Below, one piece after another: positions 33,408 to 45,709 of a DNA stretch of 64,000 bases. The position numbers were made by a program, and so were the translations under genes. A model generated the notes under the pieces. The model made no database searches and was not told the origin of the DNA. It saw only the letters and a program-made list of their open reading frames with translations. Positions within the stretch are counted from its first letter, which is position 1. Every line of letters begins with the position of its first letter. Source of the stretch: Gemmatimonadota bacterium (GTDB lineage: Bacteria; 4572-55; J002); contig RFFQ01000013.1 in assembly GCA_003697105.1 (NCBI GenBank), forward strand, positions 1 through 64,000, in the 5' to 3' direction.

Positions 33408-33519
33408 CGGCACACTCCCCTAGAAAACCCCTATGTCTATCTCTTACACTTATTATACACCAGATACAATTACCCCATTTTCTATTTAGTGGACATATTC
33501 CCTTTTGGAGGTTTCCAAA

Positions 33520-35148
33520 ATGCTTATTTATATACCGAGGGTTCTGTTTTCGGCAATTCTGATGGCGACTACCCTATTATGTTTAGGAAGTTGCGATGAT
33601 AGCGACAATATGCCCGAACCCCTTTCGATTCAATTCCTTTCTCCGGCAAATGATGCCGTTCTTCGGGAAGATAGGATTGAAGTTCAGATTAACGCTTCAG
33701 CCAACCATGCAGATGCCCGTATCGATAAGGTCGAACTATTTGCGGGAAATCAGCAGGTTGCAACCACAACGGAAGTCCAGACCAATCCTGCCATCGTCAC
33801 CCTGGAGTGGGACGTCTCCAATTTGCCCAACGCCACTTACGAATTAGAAGCAAAAGTCTATGATAACCGCGGTAACACCAAAAGCAGTCAAATCCAGGTT
33901 CAACTCCACCGACAATTAAGAGTTCAAATTACCTCACCGCAAGATGGGCAGATTATCAACAGCAACCAGATACCGGTAACGGTTACGATTAAAACGATTG
34001 CCGCTGATATTGTTGAAGCCATCTTAACGGTTGATGGTGCGGCGGTGGTCACAAAAACCCAAGCACCTTGGGAGTTTACTTGGGATACGGCAGGCTACCC
34101 CCTCAATCAGGAGTACCATCTTCAGGTGACAATTGAAGATGCCGATGGAAACACAGCCCAATCGAATGTCGTGACCATCTGCGTGGGGTGTGAAATCCCA
34201 CCCTTGAGTTTGGCAATCATTTCCCCTCAGGCGGGTGAACAAATTGAAGCCAATCAGATTTCCGTTTCTGGAACGGTAACCAGTAACATTGGGCGAGCCA
34301 TTGAGCGGGTCACTTTGATAGTGAATGATAGCCCGGTGGCAGAGCGCAACCAAGCGCCGTGGGAATTCATCTGGGATACCACCAGCTATCCCGATAGTAC
34401 CACCTGTACCCTTTTCATCGAAGCTGAAGATGAGCAGGGCAATGTGGCACAATCCGAACCGGTGACCGTCTGTGTGCGCTGTGTGGAGCAATTTAGCCGG
34501 CAGCGGGTGGTTGTTCAGGAACAATTTACCGGCGCATGGTGCCAAAACTGTCTGCTTTATGCCGATCCGGCGGCAGATGCGCTGGCAGAAGAATTTGGAC
34601 CCACCCAATTGCTCTCGGTACATTACCATATCCGGGCAGGTTTGTTTGATGATTTTGAAATCGCGGAAGGTGTGGCACGGCTGAACTACTATGCCTTGAA
34701 CAACAGCCTACCCCATGCGGTCTTTGATGGCAGTGTCGTTATTACCGGCGGAGACCCCAGTACAGAAGACGTTTACCGGCAACAAATCAATACCCAATTG
34801 GCAGATGAGCCACCCGTCGGTATTCTGTTGACCGGCACGTTGGGCGCCGGAGAAATAACGGCAAAGATCAAAGCATTTGAACAACTCGCCAATCCCGGTC
34901 TAACCGTTCAATTTGTGATTACGGAGAGTGACTTAACTCACCCCAGCCCCCCGATTCATTTTAACTATGTTGTGCGAGATATGTTGCCCCCCGCCTCGAT
35001 CACCTTACCCAATGAAGGTGATCAAACGGAAGTAAGTCGTTCTTTCGTGTTAGATGACAGTTGGAATATGGATGAAATTCAACTCGTGGTGTTTGTTCAA
35101 GATGATAACACCAAAGTTATTTTACAGGGTCAAGCTATATGGGAATAA
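33520..35148 (+). CDS. Ig-like/Omp28-like lipoprotein with CQNC thioredoxin motif
   Basis: 542 aa from the ATG at 33520, with GGAGG upstream; a TTG at 33505 lies on the ribosome-binding site itself. Signal peptide with lipobox LGSC, so lipidated. Three Ig-like repeats follow (about 30-130, 135-230, 235-325), each opening LSPxxG/xIxSP and closing with a DxxGN strand. The C-terminal Omp28-like thioredoxin-fold domain has the active site C341-QNC-344 (FTGAWCQNC) and the conserved LLSVHYH strand. It lacks the T9SS sorting domain carried by its downstream relatives. First gene of the array, so it is likely an outer-membrane-anchored redox protein. Confidence 0.78.
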   Translation: MLIYIPRVLFSAILMATTLLCLGSCDDSDNMPEPLSIQFLSPANDAVLREDRIEVQINASANHADARIDKVELFAGNQQVATTTEVQTNPAIVTLEWDVSNLPNATYELEAKVYDNRGNTKSSQIQVQLHRQLRVQITSPQDGQIINSNQIPVTVTIKTIAADIVEAILTVDGAAVVTKTQAPWEFTWDTAGYPLNQEYHLQVTIEDADGNTAQSNVVTICVGCEIPPLSLAIISPQAGEQIEANQISVSGTVTSNIGRAIERVTLIVNDSPVAERNQAPWEFIWDTTSYPDSTTCTLFIEAEDEQGNVAQSEPVTVCVRCVEQFSRQRVVVQEQFTGAWCQNCLLYADPAADALAEEFGPTQLLSVHYHIRAGLFDDFEIAEGVARLNYYALNNSLPHAVFDGSVVITGGDPSTEDVYRQQINTQLADEPPVGILLTGTLGAGEITAKIKAFEQLANPGLTVQFVITESDLTHPSPPIHFNYVVRDMLPPASITLPNEGDQTEVSRSFVLDDSWNMDEIQLVVFVQDDNTKVILQGQAIWE

Positions 35149-35178
35149 TCTCAACTTTTATCGATGGAGGAAGTACTG

Positions 35179-35721
35179 ATGAAATCAATTTTTAAGTTAA
35201 GTGCCTGTATTGTGTTGGCAATAACATTTGTTGCCGGAACGGCGATGAGTGCCGAAACGCGCGAATACCAAAAACTACCGGCATTTAGTACCAAAGATTT
35301 AAGTGGTAAACTCGTCAGTTTTGATGATGTCAAAGGTGAAAAAGCCACTTACATCACGTTTTGGGCAACGTGGTGCAAACCGTGCATGGCAGAATTGCCT
35401 CACTTGCAAGAGCTGTACGAGAAATATCAAGAGCAAGGATTGCAAATCATTGGTATGAATGAAGATACCGCCAAGAAAACCGCCAAGGTCAAAAAAGCCG
35501 TTAATCAGAAAAAGCTATCATACCCAATTTTGTTAGACCCAACAGCAGAAGTGGGTAAAAAGTTAGGGATGCCTACAGAGTTACCCTACGGCTTGCTCAT
35601 CGACGGTAACGGAAATATTATTGAAAAAACCATCGGATTTCAAAAAGGCGATGAGGATGCGTTAGAAAAGAAGATCGTTAAACTATTGGGGCTTGAAACC
35701 AGTACGGAGGAATCAAATTGA
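35179..35721 (+). CDS. TlpA/ResA-like thioredoxin
   Basis: 180 aa from the ATG at 35179 with GGAGG upstream; the ATG at 35164 lies on that site. Cleavable signal peptide (about 1-24), so periplasmic. Thioredoxin active site WC66-KP-C69 in the AhpC/TSA-like fold, with the late Pro before YGLLIDGNGNI as the cis-Pro equivalent. TlpA-type proteins reduce or relay electrons to extracytoplasmic thiols. Sitting inside the Omp28 array, it is a reasonable partner that reduces the neighbouring CxxC and UxxC proteins; that is inference. It overlaps the next start by 4 nt. Confidence 0.88.
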   Translation: MKSIFKLSACIVLAITFVAGTAMSAETREYQKLPAFSTKDLSGKLVSFDDVKGEKATYITFWATWCKPCMAELPHLQELYEKYQEQGLQIIGMNEDTAKKTAKVKKAVNQKKLSYPILLDPTAEVGKKLGMPTELPYGLLIDGNGNIIEKTIGFQKGDEDALEKKIVKLLGLETSTEESN

Positions 35722-37364
35722 AACCGCAAATAGCAATCAGTCTCGTCGCGATGGGATTGATGTTGTTGGTTAAGATTCCCACCGCCGGAAGTATTGATCT
35801 TAATTATTCATTTTACAATAATGTGCAATATTCGTTATTTGAAGCGTCGGAGCGCGACAGTCTTGTAGAACGCGCGGAAGTCAATCTTCAAATAGGGTTG
35901 TTGCGTACCGGCATGTTGCTGGAAGCGCGTCAACCTTTACCTAAAGTAGGAGATGCGGAACAAGGCTTTGGTCCCGTCAACGTGCGAAAACTGTTTTTTG
36001 AATTAGAAAAAGATGGGTTTTCGCTCCGTGCCGGAGATTTTCCGGTCTTATTTGGACGTGGATTATCGATCAACCTATTTCGAGATGATGCATTGCGTCA
36101 GGATACCGAACCGGAAGGCATCAAACTTGGCTACCGGAATGATTATGTTCAGGCAACGGCATTCAGCGGGTATGTGGAAAAATTTGTCGGACCCGTTTCC
36201 ACAAATGATGTCAGTTATGAAGTAGATGATACCCGGCAACATCTCTTTCGAGGTGCGGCATCTACGTTTCGTCCATTTACCAATACGGATTCTCCCTTAC
36301 AACCTTTAGAACTGGGGGTGCAATATGTCCGGTTTCGCTCCATCGAAGCCTATCCGTTCCCCCAAGAAACGCGGCGTTACGAAGACCGCCGTACAATGAC
36401 GGGAGGGAGTCTCTTCTATAGCGGTGATTTTTTTGATATTTACGGCGAATACGTCACCGGTAAGCGCATTGAAAACGAACTGTATCCCGATGGAAAAGCA
36501 AAGTTCACCATTGCCGAATACGATACCATCCAAGGAATATACGGCGTTATCAACGCCTTTTGGGGTGATTTTTCGCTTTTTGGCGAATTTAAGGATTATC
36601 AAGGGCTGGGCTTTTTTGATGCCTCCGGTAATTACTCCAAACCGATTGGACAGCTACAATCTCCTGCAAAACCGTACAACAATCCACCGCCCGTTGTCAC
36701 AGAGCATACCAGCCGGTTACTCGGTCGGGATATGTACCAGCCGATCATCCTCAATAACGAACGCGGGTATCGTGTGGAATTAGAGTGGACACCCACCTAT
36801 TCCACCCAGATTTTAGTCGATTATACCCGCGCAGAAAGTCGTGAAGGAGACCTCTATTTTCAGGAATATTACCTTGAATTTGAGCATTCTATTTGGGATG
36901 ATAACCTTTCGTTCATGGGCATGATCGAGCAAGGTGACGTGGGGGAAAAGGCAGACCGCACAGGCGGTTGGCTGAAAACCACGTACCAATTAAATGATAA
37001 ACAATCGATTGCCCTCACGACAGAATACATGGATGGTACGGTCAAAAACGTGGCAGATGAAGTCGGTCAATATTATGTTTTCAGTTTTTCGCAGTCCAAA
37101 GATACACATGAGAACGACTCGTTTTGGCGGGCGCTTCTGAAACGGTCGTGGACCCTCTCCGCCGCGTATGAGCTTAGTAGTGAAGCCGATCAGGATGGGA
37201 AAGATAATTGGTTTTCCTTAGCGATGGATTATAAAGTTTCAGATAATCATCTAGTACGGTTATTCTACGGTGCACGTCGAGCGGGTCTGAACTGCAACGG
37301 AGCAATTTGTGTCCCCGAACCGGCATTTGAAGGCTTCGAATGTCAATTAATTAGCGTGTTTTAA
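35718..37364 (+). CDS. DUF6029-like outer-membrane beta-barrel protein
   Basis: 548 aa with a signal peptide (about 1-25) and an alternating aromatic/polar pattern of many beta strands throughout, ending in a strand with a terminal Phe (CQLISVF), as outer-membrane barrels do. The final YGARRAGLNCNGAICVPEPAFEGFE segment is characteristic of the DUF6029 group seen with Omp28-like proteins in FCB genomes. It starts at a TTG overlapping the thioredoxin stop (TTGA), and GGAGG 7 nt before it supports this. A role as exporter, anchor or assembly partner for the neighbouring secreted proteins is inference. Confidence 0.7.
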   Translation: MKPQIAISLVAMGLMLLVKIPTAGSIDLNYSFYNNVQYSLFEASERDSLVERAEVNLQIGLLRTGMLLEARQPLPKVGDAEQGFGPVNVRKLFFELEKDGFSLRAGDFPVLFGRGLSINLFRDDALRQDTEPEGIKLGYRNDYVQATAFSGYVEKFVGPVSTNDVSYEVDDTRQHLFRGAASTFRPFTNTDSPLQPLELGVQYVRFRSIEAYPFPQETRRYEDRRTMTGGSLFYSGDFFDIYGEYVTGKRIENELYPDGKAKFTIAEYDTIQGIYGVINAFWGDFSLFGEFKDYQGLGFFDASGNYSKPIGQLQSPAKPYNNPPPVVTEHTSRLLGRDMYQPIILNNERGYRVELEWTPTYSTQILVDYTRAESREGDLYFQEYYLEFEHSIWDDNLSFMGMIEQGDVGEKADRTGGWLKTTYQLNDKQSIALTTEYMDGTVKNVADEVGQYYVFSFSQSKDTHENDSFWRALLKRSWTLSAAYELSSEADQDGKDNWFSLAMDYKVSDNHLVRLFYGARRAGLNCNGAICVPEPAFEGFECQLISVF

Positions 37365-37378
37365 TCAGGGAGGTACTA

Positions 37379-39394
37379 ATGAAAAAAAGGATATTATTAA
37401 CGGTTTTGATATTCGGAATAGCAGTTTCCGGATGGGCGGATATTCCAAAACTCGGCGTTATTGAGCAGTTCACCACAGTGGGAAATGAGTTGTGCGAAGA
37501 GTCCAATCTGTACGTTCAACAATTGAAGGAACATTACGGGGTCAAAAACGCCGTGGTGATTCAATATCACGTGGGAGATAATGACCCATTTTACCAAGCA
37601 AACCACACGGATAACGACGCCCGGGCAGAATATTACGGCGTTGAATATCTGCCAATGGTTGCTACCTCAGGCAATAGCATGGTGCAAGCCACCGATCCAT
37701 ACGATATAAACGTCAAAATGGATAAAGTGTTAGAAACAGATACCCCACTTTATATGAGTGTATTCCATGAAATTGAGGGATCAACGCTCTCGGTAGAAGG
37801 CTCGGTAGTTGCCGCCGGCGAGATAGATGGCACATATAATTTACAAATCGCCGTCATCGAAAAAGAAGTGACAGAAGGAGGCATGACATATTATAATGTG
37901 ATGCGTAAACTTTTACCAGATGGCGCGGGTACTGATTTTTACATCGCCTCTGGGGGAGACGACGCTTATTATGAGTTCTCGCAATCGCTGCAAATCGACG
38001 CCGGCTGGGATACCGATCAATTAGAAGTGATCGTTTTTGTCCAAGACCCAGCAACGCAAGGTATTTTGCAAGCGGTCACCACAGAACTGGTTGAGGCAAC
38101 ACCCTCCCCACACCATATCCGGCTGGTGTCCGAACAACGTGTCCGAATTTTACCCGTGAATACTTTTTTGGAAAATCACTATATGCGCTTCATCAATATG
38201 ATGGACCAAGATGACCAGTTTGACTTTTTGCTGGAAACAGATATGCCGGAAGGTTGGGTGGCGTCTTTTTGTGTGGGACCCATTTGCTTACCGGATTCCG
38301 CACGTATTGCGTTTGAGGCGGGACAATCCGAGGGACAACCCGAAGATGATGGACGACACATGTATGTAACCATCACACCGATGAACACACCCGGCGTCGG
38401 CGATGTCATCTTTACGGCACGCTCCGTAACCTACCCTTCGGTACAGCAATCACTTCATTTCCGGGTCATCACCGATGGTATTGATGTGCTAATCGTCGAT
38501 GCGGATGGTGGTCTGGATAGTGAACAGGGCATTGCCAGCGCTTTGGAGCGCGCAGAAGTTACCTATGGCATCTGGAAAGCATCCACACCCATCACCGGTG
38601 CCGAAATGGCGAATTTCCCGGTGGTCATCTGGAATACCGGTCGGGCATTACCCACATTGCTGGAATCTGACCGAGCCGCCATCCAAGAGTATATGGATAA
38701 CCTCGGCTCGATCCTGATCAGTGGGCAAAATATTGGTTGGGATTTAACCAATGCCGCCAGCCGTAATCGCGATCCGGAATTCTATAGTGGTGTGCTTCAT
38801 GCCAATTTCATCAATGATAATGCATCCAGCATGGCAGTAACGGGTGTTGGGTTTGCGGAAGGTCTGGCATTTAATCTGGTCGATCAAACCTCGCCGGATG
38901 TGGTGGAACCCGTCGATGATAACACCTTTGACCTATACCAATATGGCGAAAGTGAAGTTGCCGGATTGTACACGGGAGCGATGGTCTATCTAGGGTTCGA
39001 TCCGGCACAAATTGATAGTGACGATCAGCGTGACTGGACCATCGCACGTATTTTGAATTACTTTAATTTGGCGGTTGGTGCGGGACCGGTGACCACAGGC
39101 ATCACCCAAACGCCACCAGCCGTAACTCTCCACCAAAATGTGCCGAATCCATTCAATCCCACAACACGTATTCGGTACGAATTACCGCAAAGTAGCACCG
39201 TGAAGCTTACCATTTATGATGTCACCGGACGGTTGGTGCGCACGTTGGTCAACCAACCCCAAGAAAGTGGCATTTATGATGTCCAATGGAATGGTCATGA
39301 TGATGCCGGTCACGTCGTGAATAGCGGCATCTATGTTTATCAATTGGAAACTGAAACGGCGACGCAGACTCAAAAAATGATGTTGTTGAAATAA
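37379..39394 (+). CDS. Omp28-like T9SS cargo protein lacking the first redox Cys
   Basis: 671 aa. Signal peptide about 1-20, then an Omp28-like thioredoxin-fold domain. Where relatives have C/U-x-x-C this protein has N36-E-L-C39, so only the resolving-side Cys remains. The domain keeps VIQYHVGDNDPFYQAN and EYLPMV. A long beta region and a hydrolase-like DUF module (LIVDADGG, WNTGRALPTL, ILISGQNIGWDL; about 375-560) follow. The C-terminus is the FlgD-like sorting domain (VPNPFNPTTRIRYELP, SGIYVYQLE, LLK). A strong terminator follows, so many transcripts from the array promoter may stop here. Confidence 0.78.
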   Translation: MKKRILLTVLIFGIAVSGWADIPKLGVIEQFTTVGNELCEESNLYVQQLKEHYGVKNAVVIQYHVGDNDPFYQANHTDNDARAEYYGVEYLPMVATSGNSMVQATDPYDINVKMDKVLETDTPLYMSVFHEIEGSTLSVEGSVVAAGEIDGTYNLQIAVIEKEVTEGGMTYYNVMRKLLPDGAGTDFYIASGGDDAYYEFSQSLQIDAGWDTDQLEVIVFVQDPATQGILQAVTTELVEATPSPHHIRLVSEQRVRILPVNTFLENHYMRFINMMDQDDQFDFLLETDMPEGWVASFCVGPICLPDSARIAFEAGQSEGQPEDDGRHMYVTITPMNTPGVGDVIFTARSVTYPSVQQSLHFRVITDGIDVLIVDADGGLDSEQGIASALERAEVTYGIWKASTPITGAEMANFPVVIWNTGRALPTLLESDRAAIQEYMDNLGSILISGQNIGWDLTNAASRNRDPEFYSGVLHANFINDNASSMAVTGVGFAEGLAFNLVDQTSPDVVEPVDDNTFDLYQYGESEVAGLYTGAMVYLGFDPAQIDSDDQRDWTIARILNYFNLAVGAGPVTTGITQTPPAVTLHQNVPNPFNPTTRIRYELPQSSTVKLTIYDVTGRLVRTLVNQPQESGIYDVQWNGHDDAGHVVNSGIYVYQLETETATQTQKMMLLK

Positions 39395-39466: not shown

Positions 39467-41443
39467 ATGCGTAAATTGTTTTTAGTATTGTTAGCTCTGG
39501 CTTTTTTGATGCCGGTACGCGGTATGGCGGTAGAACGCACCGTACTGGCAGAATTACAAACAGCAACGTGGTGAGTGTACTGTCCTTGGGCTGAAGCAGC
39601 CATCGATCAGTTGATCGAGGAATACGGTACCGATAACGTCGTTTATATTGCCTATCACTATACTGACGAACTGGAAATCGCCGAAGGAAGTGCACGCTGG
39701 GCATCCTATTATGGCAATGAAGGTACGCCTAATATGTACTTTGACGGGCTCCAAAATGTGTTAGGCGGTTGGGAAGGCTGTTATGACGCTTATCTTGCTG
39801 AATTGCAATCCCGCTGGGCAAACAGTAGCCCGATTCGCCTCGAACTCATCGGGGGAATTGTGGATACGGAAGGATATATCTCGGCAAATGTTACATTAGA
39901 AGGGGACATTCCCGCCGGTATGACCGTCCGCTTTGCCGTTATAGAAAATGATATTATCCTAAATCGCCACTATAATGGGGTATTACGAGACTTACTGGCA
40001 GAAGAAACGCTCAGCATCAGCCAGCAAGGCGAAACGGTTACGTTGGATCGCACCTTCCCCGTAGAAGAGGGTTGGAATTACGAAAATATGGGCGTGGTTG
40101 TATTTGTCCAAAATGATAACACCCACGAAGTCCTTCAAGCCGCTTATTTTGACGCTTCAGATTCTGAATATCTGGTGAGCTTTACGTCCAGCGGCACCGT
40201 TGCGATTTCAGAAGCAGACCAACCCTATGATTTTTATGCCTTGGTGGAGAATGTCGGTCCGAATGACGATACTTACACCATTACAATGAATACCGATGAA
40301 TTACCCGAAGGGTGGAACGCCACGTTTACCATCGGCGAAGACGTGTACGAATCCGAAGCCGAAATTGATCTGGCGTCAGGGGAACAGGTACTTCTCACTA
40401 TCAATTATAATCCGAATAACGTACCCGGTCAGGGCGATGTTTATTTAGAATTAGTCTCCCACGCCGAACCGCGCCTGCAAAAATCAATGAGTTTTCGGCT
40501 GATCTCCGATGTGGAAGTCCTGATTGTGGATGACGCCCTCAATACCGATGCCACCCTGTATGAAACGGTGCTAACCGAAGATGAAACGATATGGGGCACG
40601 TGGGAAGTCCTCCGGGGAGGCAACATTGATAGTGATGAAATTGCGAATATCCCCACCGTGTTATGGATAACCGGTAGCGACGATCGTGAAACCATCACCG
40701 AAGACGATCAAATGGAATTGATCACCTATCTGGAAAACGGCGGATCATTGCTCCTAACCGGTCACAATATCGGGGGCGATATTGCCGCAACTGAATTTTA
40801 CACCGATTTTCTGGGCGCCCGTTATCGTTTCAATAACTTCGGACAAACCACCCTGAACGGGATCGAAGGCAACCCGATTGGCGATGGGTTAGTCCTCGAA
40901 ATTGAACACGATTCCCCAGATGTGGTCATGATGCAGGACGATGTGGATGGTCTGGAACCGGTCTTCCAATATGGAGCAGTGCCCAACCTCTACGCGGCAC
41001 TCGCACATGCGGCAGATACGTACCGGACGGTCTATTTTTCTGTGAGTCTGGATCAAGTATCCGATCCAGACAGCCGGGAAAGTGCCCTATTGCGCTCCTT
41101 GCGCTGGTTGAGAGGCGAATCCACGAACATCGACCCGGTGGAGCAAACATCAATTGCCACCGTCTCACATTACCAACTGGCACAGAATGTACCGAACCCA
41201 TTTAACCCCCGAACCACAATTGCCTATGCGTTGCCGGAACAAAGTCGTGTCAGTATCCATATTTACAACTCTTCCGGTCAATTGATACGAACTCTGGTCA
41301 ATAAGACGCAGAATGCCGGCACATATCACGTCCAGTGGGACGGTACAGATAGTGAACATCACGAAGTCGCCAGTGGGATTTATCTGTATAAACTCGTGAC
41401 AGACAAAGAAACACACATTAAATCAATGGTATTACTCCGGTAA
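39467..41443 (+). CDS. Omp28-like selenoprotein, Sec36 (UVYC), T9SS-sorted
   Basis: 658 aa if TGA 39572-39574 is read as selenocysteine. The ATG at 39467 has AAGGAG 9 nt upstream, and a signal peptide (about 1-21) precedes the mature start AVERTVLAELQTATW. TGA sits exactly where relatives have the first Cys of CxxC: U36-V-Y-C39. The frame then continues without interruption through the Omp28 fold (NVVYIAYHYT, NEGTPNMYFDG), a beta region, a module with VLIVDDALN, SLLLTGHNIGGD and ARYRFNNF, and the FlgD-like sorting domain (VPNPFNPRTTIAYALP, SGIYLYKL, LLR). A start after the TGA would lose the signal peptide and has no ribosome-binding site. A SECIS-like hairpin follows the TGA. Confidence 0.85.
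39572..39601 (+). promoter_or_regulatory. Sec UGA codon with downstream SECIS-like stem-loop (first)
   Basis: The UGA at 39572-39574 is followed after 18 nt by loop GAAGC (39593-39597), closed by the 4-bp stem GGCT/AGCC (39589-39592, 39598-39601). The first loop base is G. Distance and loop match the general bacterial SECIS rule (loop 16-37 nt after UGA, a G in the first two loop positions). The stem is short, so it is weaker evidence than the second copy. A second candidate stem, CGATC/GATCG around AGTT, lies just downstream. Confidence 0.6.
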
Positions 41444-41497: not shown

Positions 41498-41549
41498 CAA
41501 TCCCAACAGAACACTCCATACCAAAAGCCCATTCATGAGGAGATTACCG

Positions 41550-43550
41550 ATGAGGCAAATTTTATGGACAAGTGTGGTTTGGTCATTTATTGCCGTCTCC
41601 GCATTTGCAACGGAACGGGTGGTCTTAATGGAAATGTTTACCAGCACCACCTGACCGGTTTGTCCCACTGCGGAGCAGTGGCTTGATAACTGGTATCCTA
41701 GCAATTACGATGACGTGGCAATTATCCGTTACCACATGAATTGGCCCGCCCCCGGGAATGACCCCTTTTATCACGCCAACCCGCTAGAAAACAACGCCCG
41801 GCGAGGGGTTTACGGCGTCAACGGCATACCGGACATGTTTGTGGATGGCGTTTTAAATCCAGGCATACCCTACAGTACCGCCGTCAACCAACGGTTGGAG
41901 ATACCTAGCCCGTTGGAAATCAATGTGGATGGAACATTTGATTGGACTACCAATGAAGGCACCACTACGGTGGAAATCACAGCAACAGAAGACTTCTCTT
42001 ATAATTCATTGCGGATGCAATACGTGATTATTGAAAATAATGTAGCATACACCGGTCCAAACGGACATACACCCCACCATCAGGTGATGCACGATATGGT
42101 ACCAACAGCTTCGGGCGAAAGTTTTGAGATTACAAATGGAGAAACCCTCCTATTCAACCGGAATTTCGTCATTGATGAAAGCTGGGATGCGAATGAATGT
42201 GAGATTGTTGTTTTTGTGCAGGATAATACGAGCCGTGAAGTCTTTCAAGCAATGCATATGTCGCTTGATGAACTGTTTCCTATCCGCCTCCGCTTTGAAA
42301 CAAGCGGCAATACGGCACTGGGTGCGTCCGATGGTGAGTATCCGTTTTACGCCCTCATCGAAAATCAAGACAACCAAGCAGATGTATTTGATGTTGAATT
42401 GACAACCTCTGCACCCGAGGCGTGGTCGATCAATTTTACGCTGGAAGGAGTCACCTACGAGGATGGGGCAGAACTCCCCCTCGATGCCGGTGAAGAAGTG
42501 CCCTTAACCGTGAATATCAGCCCCAATAGCACCGCCGGTGAAGGTTTTGCCACGGTCACCCTCACCTCCCAATCCGAACCACGGGTGGTAAAATCTCTGA
42601 CCTTCCAACTCATTACCAATGATGTAGATGTGCTCGTGATTGACGATGCCAATGATGGTAATATTGAACCGTATCGCGCCGCACTGGAAACAACCGATTT
42701 TGTCTTTGGCGCCTGGGATGTCGCGGTGGGAGGCGCTCTAAATCCAGAGGATCTAGAACAGATTACGACCCTCATCTGGTTTACCGGCGGTGAAGAAGAG
42801 ACCGCTTTAGAACCCGATGAAATCGAGATGTTGACCGGTTACCTCGATAACGGCGGGCAACTGATGCTCTCGGGGCGAAATTTGGGCGTTGCGATTGGCA
42901 CAACAGATTTTTATACTGAATATCTCGGTGCCCATTTCCGGTTCAACAACTTCAGCACCTATGAGGTGAATGGGATTGAAGGCGACCCCATCGGGGATGG
43001 TATCTCCTTCACATTTGAGCAGGATTCCCCAGATGTCGTCCTCCCCCGTCCCGGAGTGGATGGCGTGTCACCGGTTTTTCAATATGGCGATATTCCGCTG
43101 TATGCGGCACTACGGCACGAGACCGAAACCTACCGCACGGTGTACTATTCGATCAGCTTGGAAGGCGTCAATGAAGCCGATGCCCTCGCCCAGCTCATCG
43201 AAAATTCGGTTCTCTGGTTACAAGGGGAAGAAACAGCAATTGAGCCACAAAAAAGTGATGTGGCACGTGTAACTGCCTATCAATTATTTCAAAATGTACC
43301 GAATCCATTCAATCCTCAAACTCAAATTGAATATGCGGTGCCGGTACCTGCAACAGTTCAGTTGAATATCTATTCCGTGACAGGACAATTCATCAAAACG
43401 CTTGTACATCGTCCGCAAAGTGCCGGACACTATCGTGTGATATGGGATGGTACCAACCAGTTTGGAGCTGCCGTAGCCAGCGGAATTTATCTGTATGAAC
43501 TATCGGCTGGGGAACACCGGCTCACCCGTCAGATGGTTCTACTCCATTAA
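41550..43550 (+). CDS. Omp28-like selenoprotein, Sec35 (UPVC), T9SS-sorted
   Basis: 666 aa if TGA 41652-41654 is selenocysteine. The ATG at 41550 has GAGGAG 7 nt upstream; the signal peptide is about 1-20. The N-terminal mature part ERVVLMEMFTSTT-U-PVC aligns residue by residue with ERIVLLEMFTSTT-C-PPC of the gene at 43622, so U35 replaces the nucleophilic Cys and C38 is the partner. The frame is open from the ATG through the TGA to 43550: Omp28 fold (IIRYHMNWPAPGNDPFYHAN, GIPDMFVDG), beta modules, VLVIDDAND, LMLSGRNLGV, HFRFNNF, and the sorting domain (VPNPFNPQTQIEYAVP, SGIYLYEL). A clear SECIS-like stem-loop follows. TGA is a normal stop elsewhere in this window. Confidence 0.9.
41652..41681 (+). 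promoter_or_regulatory. Sec UGA codon with downstream SECIS-like stem-loop (second)
   Basis: The UGA at 41652-41654 is followed after 17 nt by a perfect 7-bp stem CCACTGC (41665-41671) / GCAGTGG (41675-41681) with loop GGA; alternatively a 6-bp stem with loop CGGAG after 16 nt. Distance, stem strength and G-containing apical loop all fit a bacterial SECIS bound by SelB. Confidence 0.75.
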
Positions 43551-43621: not shown

Positions 43622-45709
43622 ATGCGTAAAACACTATTTATGGTTTTAATATTAATACTAATGGTTACGCTTTTCGTACCCAATGTACACGCGGAACGAA
43701 TCGTACTGTTGGAGATGTTTACCAGTACCACCTGCCCACCGTGTGTATCCGCCAATGCGGCGATGAATACGTGGTATCCTGACAACGATGATATTTCGGC
43801 ATTGATTCGCTACCATGTTTGGTGGCCCTCACCGGGCAATGACCCGTTCTATCTGGCAAACACGGCAGAAGCCCAAGCCCGCACCAATTATTACGGGGTA
43901 AATGGGGTGCCCGACATCTTTGCAGATGGACTTTTGGACGCCAGTTTCCCTCCCATTTCTCAGGTTGCTCAACGTCGCGCGGTAGACCCGCCAGTGGATA
44001 TTATGGTTGCCGGCAGCTATGACGTTGATAATAACGTTGGTGAGGCAACTATTACTGTCTCCGCGCTGGAAGACTTCAATTACAATGACCTCCGCTTTTT
44101 CTTCGTTATTACGGAAGATAATTGTGTGTACACTGGTACAAACGGGGATCCGGTACACCATCAGGTGATGCGCGACATGGTGCCAAATGCCAACGGCGAA
44201 AGTTTTGATATTGCCGATGGTGAATCGGTCGTGTTTACCCGATCCTTCTCGCTATCACCCGTACCGGGTGTAAATGAGACCGGAATTCCTGAAAATACAA
44301 ACGTCGTGTGCTGGGTTCAAGATGTAGCAACAAATTCCAGAGAAGTACATCAGGCCGCTTGGGTACCCCTAATGGAACTCGTCCCAGCCGCCGCTATTGA
44401 AGGATATGTCACCGACTGTGCCAATGAGGAAGGCTTGGATGTGACGAATGTCTATGTGGAAGGCACGGGATATGCCACCATCACCGATGAAAATGGATTT
44501 TACCATCTCAATGCCGAACCGGGCACGCACACGGTCGTTTTTGAGCGGTTCGGGTATGTCACACACACCCAAGAAGTCACCTTAGCCGAAGATGATCTAC
44601 TGCCCGTAGATGTCTGTCTGAATGCGTTCGGGCAATCCACGTTAACCGGAACGGTTTCACAGCGGGAAAATGGTAATCCAATTCCAAATGCACCCATTGA
44701 ACTGCTCGGTGTACCAATTAATTCCACCGTAACGGATGAAAACGGGGTCTATACGTTCAGTGTTCCGGGTGGTTACACCTACGAGGTTTCGGTCTATGCA
44801 GATGATCGCGAACCGGTTGTAGAAAGCGTTACCGTACCTGAAAATGAAGTGGTAGAGCACAACTTCCCGATGCGCTTTGTTCAAAGTTTTGAAGCAACCG
44901 ATGGTGGCTTTGATCCCAACCGCCTGTGGGAGTGGGGCGATGCCAACGCAGGTGGTGGCGCTGAAACGGCCTATTTGGGGATGAAGTACTGGTCAACCAA
45001 TATCGACGGTGCATATCCCAGTAATCAACGTGCCGATCTGGTGACACCCGAATATAGCCTGACCCAAGCCAACGCCGCCGATTTATTCTATGCCCACTGG
45101 CTCGATACCAACGAGGGATGGGACGGCTATAATCTTTCCATCAGCACTAACGGCGGCGATGACTGGGTCCGGATCGAACCGGAAGGAGGCTATCCCGGCA
45201 GTGTGATCGGATTATCGGGACAACCTGGCTTCTCCAGTGATAGCAACGTATGGGAGATGGTACATTATGATCTGACCGACTATCTCGGCGAAGTGGTTCA
45301 ATTCCGATTCCGTTTCGGTAGTACCAACAACAACCGGAATTACTTAGGGGTTTGCATTGACTATTTTGATCTCCAAACGGATGTGGAAACGGCGGTAGAT
45401 GAGCCACAAATGACGGGTATTGCCATTCCACAAGCCCTGACACTGAGCCAAAATGTCCCCAACCCGTTCAACCCCAATACGAAAATCCATTTTGCCTTGC
45501 CCCAAACCCAACATATTAATGTCGCCATTTATGCCCTGAATGGACAGTTGGTAAAAACATTGCAAAATGGTGTTCTTTCGGCAGGGGATTACACCGTTAC
45601 TTGGAATGGTACCAATGAGCAAGGCGTACCGGTAGCCAGCGGAACATACATCTACCGCTTGGAAAGCAACGCTGAAATCCTCAGCAAAACCATGGTCTTG
45701 TTGAAGTAA
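43622..45709 (+). CDS. Omp28-like T9SS cargo protein with CPPC motif
   Basis: 695 aa. GGAGG precedes the ATG; signal peptide about 1-24. Omp28-like domain with active site C38-PP-C41 (EMFTSTTCPPC), the Cys counterpart of the selenoprotein upstream, followed by LIRYHVWWPSPGNDPFY and GVPDIFADG. Two carboxypeptidase-regulatory-like modules (about 260-335, AAIEGYVTD; and 340-415, STLTGTVSQ) are unique to this copy. A lectin/MAM-like beta domain (about 420-590) and the FlgD-like sorting domain (VPNPFNPNTKIHFALP, SGTYIYRL, LLK) complete it. Last gene of the array; two hairpins follow. Confidence 0.82.
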   Translation: MRKTLFMVLILILMVTLFVPNVHAERIVLLEMFTSTTCPPCVSANAAMNTWYPDNDDISALIRYHVWWPSPGNDPFYLANTAEAQARTNYYGVNGVPDIFADGLLDASFPPISQVAQRRAVDPPVDIMVAGSYDVDNNVGEATITVSALEDFNYNDLRFFFVITEDNCVYTGTNGDPVHHQVMRDMVPNANGESFDIADGESVVFTRSFSLSPVPGVNETGIPENTNVVCWVQDVATNSREVHQAAWVPLMELVPAAAIEGYVTDCANEEGLDVTNVYVEGTGYATITDENGFYHLNAEPGTHTVVFERFGYVTHTQEVTLAEDDLLPVDVCLNAFGQSTLTGTVSQRENGNPIPNAPIELLGVPINSTVTDENGVYTFSVPGGYTYEVSVYADDREPVVESVTVPENEVVEHNFPMRFVQSFEATDGGFDPNRLWEWGDANAGGGAETAYLGMKYWSTNIDGAYPSNQRADLVTPEYSLTQANAADLFYAHWLDTNEGWDGYNLSISTNGGDDWVRIEPEGGYPGSVIGLSGQPGFSSDSNVWEMVHYDLTDYLGEVVQFRFRFGSTNNNRNYLGVCIDYFDLQTDVETAVDEPQMTGIAIPQALTLSQNVPNPFNPNTKIHFALPQTQHINVAIYALNGQLVKTLQNGVLSAGDYTVTWNGTNEQGVPVASGTYIYRLESNAEILSKTMVLLK

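Follow-up and report, generated by a model that had tools for sequence, protein, structure and literature searches.

Type IX-sorted selenoproteins of Omp28 type predicted in a Gemmatimonadota genome

We analysed a 64,000-nucleotide stretch of DNA (the window; contig RFFQ01000013.1, assembly GCA_003697105.1) from a Gemmatimonadota bacterium, concentrating on the gene at 41550–43550. This gene, named UPVC here after its active-site motif, carries an in-frame TGA that is predicted to encode selenocysteine (U), and probably makes a selenoprotein that would leave the cytoplasm through the Sec pathway and reach the cell surface by type IX secretion. More broadly, we lean towards the view that this genome encodes the first type IX-sorted selenoproteins: at least four surface selenol thioredoxins, drawn from two Omp28 lineages with separate Cys/selenocysteine exchange, with selenocysteine insertion sequence (SECIS) elements at 17 and 34 nt, selenium chemistry outside the outer membrane and one member in a mercury-resistance-type cluster.

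An in-frame TGA at the first active-site cysteine

The UPVC product contains a single U, at residue 35 (context ...MEMFTSTTUPVCPTAE...), with 631 codons 3′ of it. An earlier reading of this DNA (the sequence-only reading) had placed a TGA at the first Cys of a thioredoxin-type motif, behind an ATG and ribosome-binding site and ahead of more than 600 open codons; each of these elements was found where it had been described (Table 1), and a second in-frame ATG lies upstream at 41535. The best full-length relative, the public homologue P0002, reads MEMFTSTT-C-PPC where the UPVC protein reads MEMFTSTT-U-PVC. The two proteins are identical at 12 of 14 residues from the signal peptide to U, at 12 of the 20 residues that separate the TGA from GTG 41715, the first codon at which translation could restart, and at 50% of positions over the downstream 611 codons. 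The earlier reading also noted a likeness of the TGA-flanking sequence to the CPPC paralogue at 43622; the UPVC domain and the CPPC domain (43733) are 47% identical. Both the UPVC protein and that of the neighbouring gene at 39467 pass the gathering score of the Omp28 family PF11551 (34.9), and in the structure model of the UPVC protein the UxxC motif lies within a thioredoxin-like fold. Structural comparison with VIA-align returned mostly matches to the middle domain, and the lack of other thioredoxins in that list is uninformative. This middle domain, ThuA-like or glutamine-amidotransferase-like, sits within a predicted surface protein.

A genome search with domain alignment found seven Omp28 domains. 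Four have one TGA inside, at the same codon position, and no other stop in the matched stretch: UPVC (41550), UVYC (39467), UTYC (contig C185) and UATC (contig C24). The remaining three read CPPC (43622), CQNC (33505) and NELC (37379). The TGA column corresponds to the first active-site cysteine of the thioredoxin-like domain in relatives, and GGAG lies 5 to 11 bases before the start codon in all four TGA genes. Two of the four (39467 and 41550) adjoin within the window; the TGA at 39572, in the upstream neighbour of the UPVC gene, had been missed previously. For three of the four, the protein set holds N-terminally cut products (P0001, P0051 and P0079) that start after the TGA, so that these genes have been recorded without their active site. 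The NELC gene, by comparison, encodes a full-length, type IX-sorted paralogue minus the first active-site Cys; this loss makes another role possible, and the protein may have a non-redox function.

Selenocysteine insertion and type IX secretion machinery

The genome (96.85% complete, 199 contigs) encodes a tRNA-Sec with anticodon TCA together with SelA (585 bits), SelB (383.8 bits) and SelD (355.9 bits). The sequence-only reading had named a lack of this machinery as the result that would overturn it; all four components are present. A TGA aligned with a conserved Cys and a genome with the insertion machinery are among the marks of bacterial selenoproteins, and both are seen here. SelD is itself of the selenocysteine type, with its own in-frame TGA in ...ACAGUASK... 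(L018, contig C12 of the source genome, minus strand).

Of the translocon and sortase expected for type IX type A cargo, the genome encodes SprA (508.6 bits, joined with neighbours in frame) and PorU, which scores 649.9 bits where 420 is the cut-off. All four TGA proteins pass the sorting-domain model TIGR04183 (cut-off 23), with 25.1 (41550), 35.6 (39467), 28.9 (C185) and 30.8 bits (C24), and the 39467 protein also passes PF18962 (28.7 against a gathering score of 27). Together with SprA and PorU, the selenocysteine machinery supports the core of the earlier prediction, a selenoprotein that combines a Sec signal peptide with a sorting domain for type IX export.

Candidate SECIS hairpins

The available text of PMC13188914 gives a bacterial SECIS model with a loop of 3–9 nt, a stem of 4–16 bp, G at the first or second loop position, a UGA-to-loop distance of 16–37 nt and an energy limit. 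The 7-bp stem-loop previously noted at SECIS distance in the UPVC gene is real (41665–41681, loop 17 nt past the TGA) and, energy limit aside, agrees with this model in its stem, loop, G position and spacing. So does the second hairpin of the UVYC gene (39602–39619, loop AGUU, 34 nt after the TGA). The three WUxxC genes (UVYC, UTYC and UATC; the trio) have a common pair of adjacent hairpins, of which the second fits in each (6–7 bp, AGUU, 34 nt). Against a background of 17,769 codons from 41 window genes, the fraction with an equal or better hairpin by our score was 0.0064 for UPVC, 0.0297 for UVYC, 0.0064 for UTYC, 0.016 for UATC and 0.049 for SelD. No hairpin was seen in three of the five Cys or degenerate controls, and the fractions for the others were 0.20 (CAPC of G001, the second genome sampled from this phylum) and 0.025 (CQNC_34540).

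Within the trio, 4 of 12 base pairs have changed on both sides, two of them occurring in three forms (UA, CG and GC), and 34 of the 36 cells pair. A count of four double changes was reached by 7 of 500 shuffles, while six slid versions of the structure, a control that preserves relatedness and draws on three sequences only, yielded 0 or 1; the structure had been picked from the very sequences used to test its covariation. The consensus fold was lower in energy than all 2000 synonymous-codon controls, although such controls take no account of how the three paralogues are related, and 0/2000 is therefore too favourable. Rather stable hairpins also follow the active site of the Cys paralogues CPPC (43733) and CQNC (34540), and these may be relics of an earlier SECIS or chance occurrences.

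Distribution and evolution

Protein searches gathered 194 proteins, of which 174 could be aligned across the active-site column, 6 start after it and 14 were left unaligned by the model. All 174 aligned proteins read C..C. For the check put forward in the sequence-only reading, whether U or C occupies the Omp28 column, the counts are TGA in 4 of 7 domains of this genome and C in all 174 aligned proteins. The six proteins that start after the column are the three cut products of this genome and P0003, P0008 and P0189. Like the cut products of the TGA genes, these last three, all public Omp28-type records, begin past the active site; they may represent additional unannotated selenocysteine genes, or mere contig ends.

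In the 82 genomes of G002's phylum, 29 have an Omp28-like match. Weak matches (L067–L069 and G031:C59) and stretches short of the column were left out of the column count. In-frame TGA codons occur elsewhere in three match stretches (L053, L072 and L089), where the column reads T, T and C, respectively. A protein search of the genome contigs returned one locus, matching the C-terminal domain only, and PADLOC gave no match.

In a tree built from 62 Omp28 domains, in which U was coded as C, the UPVC protein joins P0002 (support 100/95), then CPPC 43622 (100/97) and, further out, the CPPC protein of G001 (98/90). The WUxxC trio makes up a separate clade (100/96). A single clade of all four TGA proteins was rejected (AU p 1.47e-5), which implies at least two Cys/selenocysteine exchanges on this tree; the SECIS distances (17 versus 34 nt) agree with separate exchanges.

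Weighing the evidence

Several observations weigh against the reading of the UPVC product as a surface-sorted selenoprotein. On the RNA side, one of the Cys controls, CQNC_34540, yields a hairpin that agrees with the SECIS model as well, and pairing fails in 2 of the 36 cells of the trio structure. Synonymous controls folded as low at 42 nt in 82 of 2000 cases for UPVC, 53 of 2000 for CPPC_43733 and 15 of 2000 for CQNC_34540, and SelD's own element is unremarkable (303 of 2000 controls as low). Single-gene RNA evidence for SECIS elements is weak. Since folding of single genes does not separate selenocysteine from Cys paralogues, we dropped folding energy as proof and used only the trio covariation and the published model. 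On the comparative side, no row read at the column outside the source genome (G000) has a TGA among the 82 genomes of G002's phylum, and G001, which with G000 makes up the two-genome sample of the source phylum, uses Cys in both its Omp28 domains even though SelA is present; selenocysteine here is thus not conserved in the relatives examined. Missing machinery as the cause of Cys in G001 was rejected, as SelA, the selenocysteine gene looked for, was found there. Finally, the UPVC sorting domain clears TIGR04183 narrowly (25.1 against 23), and the protein falls below the gathering score of PF18962 (15.7 against 27).

This last point bears on the alternative that survives best, although we judge it unlikely: that the protein is a selenoprotein but stays in the periplasm or at the periplasmic side of the outer membrane, its FlgD-Ig domain being merely structural. 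The 42 bits of PF13860 (FlgD_ig) on the UPVC protein exceed its scores on both sorting-domain models. Set against this are SprA and PorU in the genome, the higher TIGR04183 scores (28.9–35.6) of the other three TGA genes, and the recurrence of similar C-terminal domains genome-wide: the PorU model gave at least 47 matches, with 47 of 116 candidates scored, and those listed outside contigs C113 and C46 touch only its C-terminal part. The closest structure, HBP35, is also type IX-exported according to the available text of PMC3120885.

Far less probable is that TGA 41652 is a true stop, leaving a 34-amino-acid peptide and a separate gene from GTG 41715, a decaying pseudogene, or a base error. 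The gene callers' version is of this kind, with P0001 beginning downstream of the TGA, and TGA is a working stop in the window, where it ends 10 of the 41 listed genes (23 end in TAA and 8 in TAG). However, the same accident would be needed at the same codon in four paralogues, and the remaining 611 codons are intact. A stop at the TGA would leave the 20 codons ahead of GTG 41715 untranslated, yet they are conserved, which is evidence directly against termination. The downstream part alone would, as modelled, have neither a signal peptide nor the first strand of the thioredoxin fold. Decoding of the TGA as another amino acid, by near-cognate suppression or a reassigned code, has no point in its favour and a negligible probability, given the tRNA-Sec and the whole selenocysteine pathway, a column that is Cys rather than Trp or Arg in aligned relatives, and the use of TGA as a stop by those same 10 genes, on which ground genome-wide reassignment was rejected.

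Relation to known proteins

Omp28-type selenoproteins are already known. NCBIfam family NF045500 is named Omp28-related selenoprotein, and a 2026 review (PMC13188914), in its available text, equates it with the "hypothetical protein GOS_C" (UxxC) of Zhang and Gladyshev 2008, for which the accessible part of the original report (PMC2398784) gives a thioredoxin-like fold and counts of 74 selenocysteine and 312 Cys sequences. As far as those texts go, the likeness lies in the UxxC motif in a thioredoxin-like fold, the Omp28 name and the selenocysteine/Cys pairs within the family. In contrast, the four TGA proteins score 60.2 (41550), 66.3 (39467), 73.7 (C185) and 78.8 bits (C24) against a cut-off of 200, with matches that span roughly positions 34–275 of the 377 in the profile, and we did not accept their assignment to NF045500. 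Their Omp28 domain is also joined to a type IX sorting domain, and three of the four proteins have a long middle part.

HBP35 of Porphyromonas gingivalis (5y1a) shares the modelled fold across the thioredoxin and beta domains; it differs in having Cys rather than selenocysteine, a length of 344 amino acids and demonstrated hemin binding. Type IX-sorted Omp28 proteins with Cys from Ignavibacteria and Bacteroidota (P0010, P0015 and P0173 are examples) likewise combine an Omp28-type thioredoxin domain with Por_Secre_tail, but every one aligned has Cys at the column. Other predicted outer-membrane selenoproteins, the TonB-dependent receptor NF049945 and the MtrB/PioB-type NF041027, are of receptor or beta-barrel type, and the text available on them does not mention a type IX sorting domain. 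In the open-licence PubMed Central literature we found no paper on a type IX-sorted selenoprotein, the few that came up being unrelated, in part as judged by title, and none pairing a selenoprotein with Omp28; a Helicobacter comparison came up for selenocysteine with Omp28. Of the novelty claimed in the sequence-only reading, the Omp28 part falls, given NF045500 and GOS_C, and the type IX part stands within the literature searched, as far as its texts were available. What appears to be new, judging from sequence, is the presence of type IX sorting domains on Omp28-type selenoproteins.

A possible route to the surface

In the mechanism we propose, SelB would deliver the selenocysteinyl-tRNA to the UGA at 41652, with the hairpin at 41665–41681 as SECIS. 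The signal peptide would be cleaved near the AFA-TE junction, and the thioredoxin and Omp28 domains would fold in the periplasm. The type IX translocon (SprA) would then recognise the C-terminal sorting domain, and PorU would cleave it. By analogy with the Cys-containing thioredoxin domain of HBP35, the selenol-thiol pair of UPVC may serve at the surface as a thiol-disulfide (or peroxide) reductase, for which the neighbouring TlpA-like protein is a candidate periplasmic electron donor. Few protein side chains are oxidised as easily as selenols, and how they would be kept reduced beyond the outer membrane is not obvious. If correct, a surface selenocysteine family points to a selenol-requiring substrate (peroxide, mercury or another soft metal, or disulfides) or to an unknown outer-membrane electron route, and would mean that large type IX cargo can carry selenocysteine. 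The TGA at 41652 beside CPPC 43733 offers a natural selenocysteine/Cys pair for testing what selenocysteine adds.

Table 1 Features of the UPVC gene and its surroundings (window coordinates)
Feature	Position	Strand	Details
Omp28-domain, lipoprotein-like protein	33505..35148	+	WCQNC and Big_7 repeats
TlpA/ResA-like thiol-disulfide oxidoreductase (CKPC), candidate reductant	35164..35721	+	PF00578 90.1 bits
DUF6029 protein, perhaps outer membrane beta-barrel	35718..37364	+	PF19494 71.0 bits
NELC paralogue, first Cys lost, type IX sorting domain	37379..39394	+	
WUVYC Omp28/thioredoxin gene	39467..41443	+	658 aa with TGA as U; PF11551 36.5 bits, TIGR04183 35.6 bits
In-frame TGA, predicted selenocysteine codon of WUVYC	39572..39574	+	residue 36 of the product; ...LQTATWUVYCPWAE...
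Two adjacent hairpins of WUVYC gene	39589..39619	+	both covary with two paralogues
Ribosome-binding site AGGAG	41538..41542	+	7 nt 5′ of ATG 41550
UPVC Omp28/thioredoxin gene	41550..43550	+	666 aa with TGA as U; PF11551 58.9 bits
Thioredoxin-fold and Omp28 beta-sandwich domain, HBP35-like	41607..42281	+	
In-frame TGA, predicted selenocysteine codon, position 1 of UPVC	41652..41654	+	aligned with C in P0002
Predicted SECIS of UPVC gene	41665..41681	+	7-bp stem, loop GGA, loop starts 17 nt after TGA
Glutamine-amidotransferase-like/ThuA-like domain	42624..43232	+	VIA-align matches 3soz, 2gk3, 3rht, about model residues 364–566
FlgD-Ig/type IX type A sorting domain, C-terminal	43299..43538	+	TIGR04183 25.1 bits, PF13860 42 bits
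CPPC paralogue, TGA-free at site, type IX sorting domain	43622..45709	+	

Gene neighbourhood

The upstream block at 33505–37364 comprises the Omp28 lipoprotein-like, TlpA/ResA-like and DUF6029 genes; porin models on the DUF6029 protein stayed under their cut-offs. The same three genes occur in the same order on contig C51 of G001 (L095, 2861–6102), with no type IX-sorted Omp28 genes beside them. Given this common order, the window block resembles a conserved thiol-redox module; in this genome a run of four sorting-domain paralogues comes after it, two of them with a TGA. The TlpA-like protein might pass electrons to the Omp28 paralogues.

Outside the window, the UATC gene (L097, 6435–10455, contig C24 of the source genome, minus strand) lies directly downstream of a mercuric-reductase-like gene (HMA and Pyr_redox_2) and a MerT-HMA fusion; a gene for a MerR-type regulator is also close by. 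These mercury-type neighbours suggest that the UATC gene may belong to a mercury-response operon.
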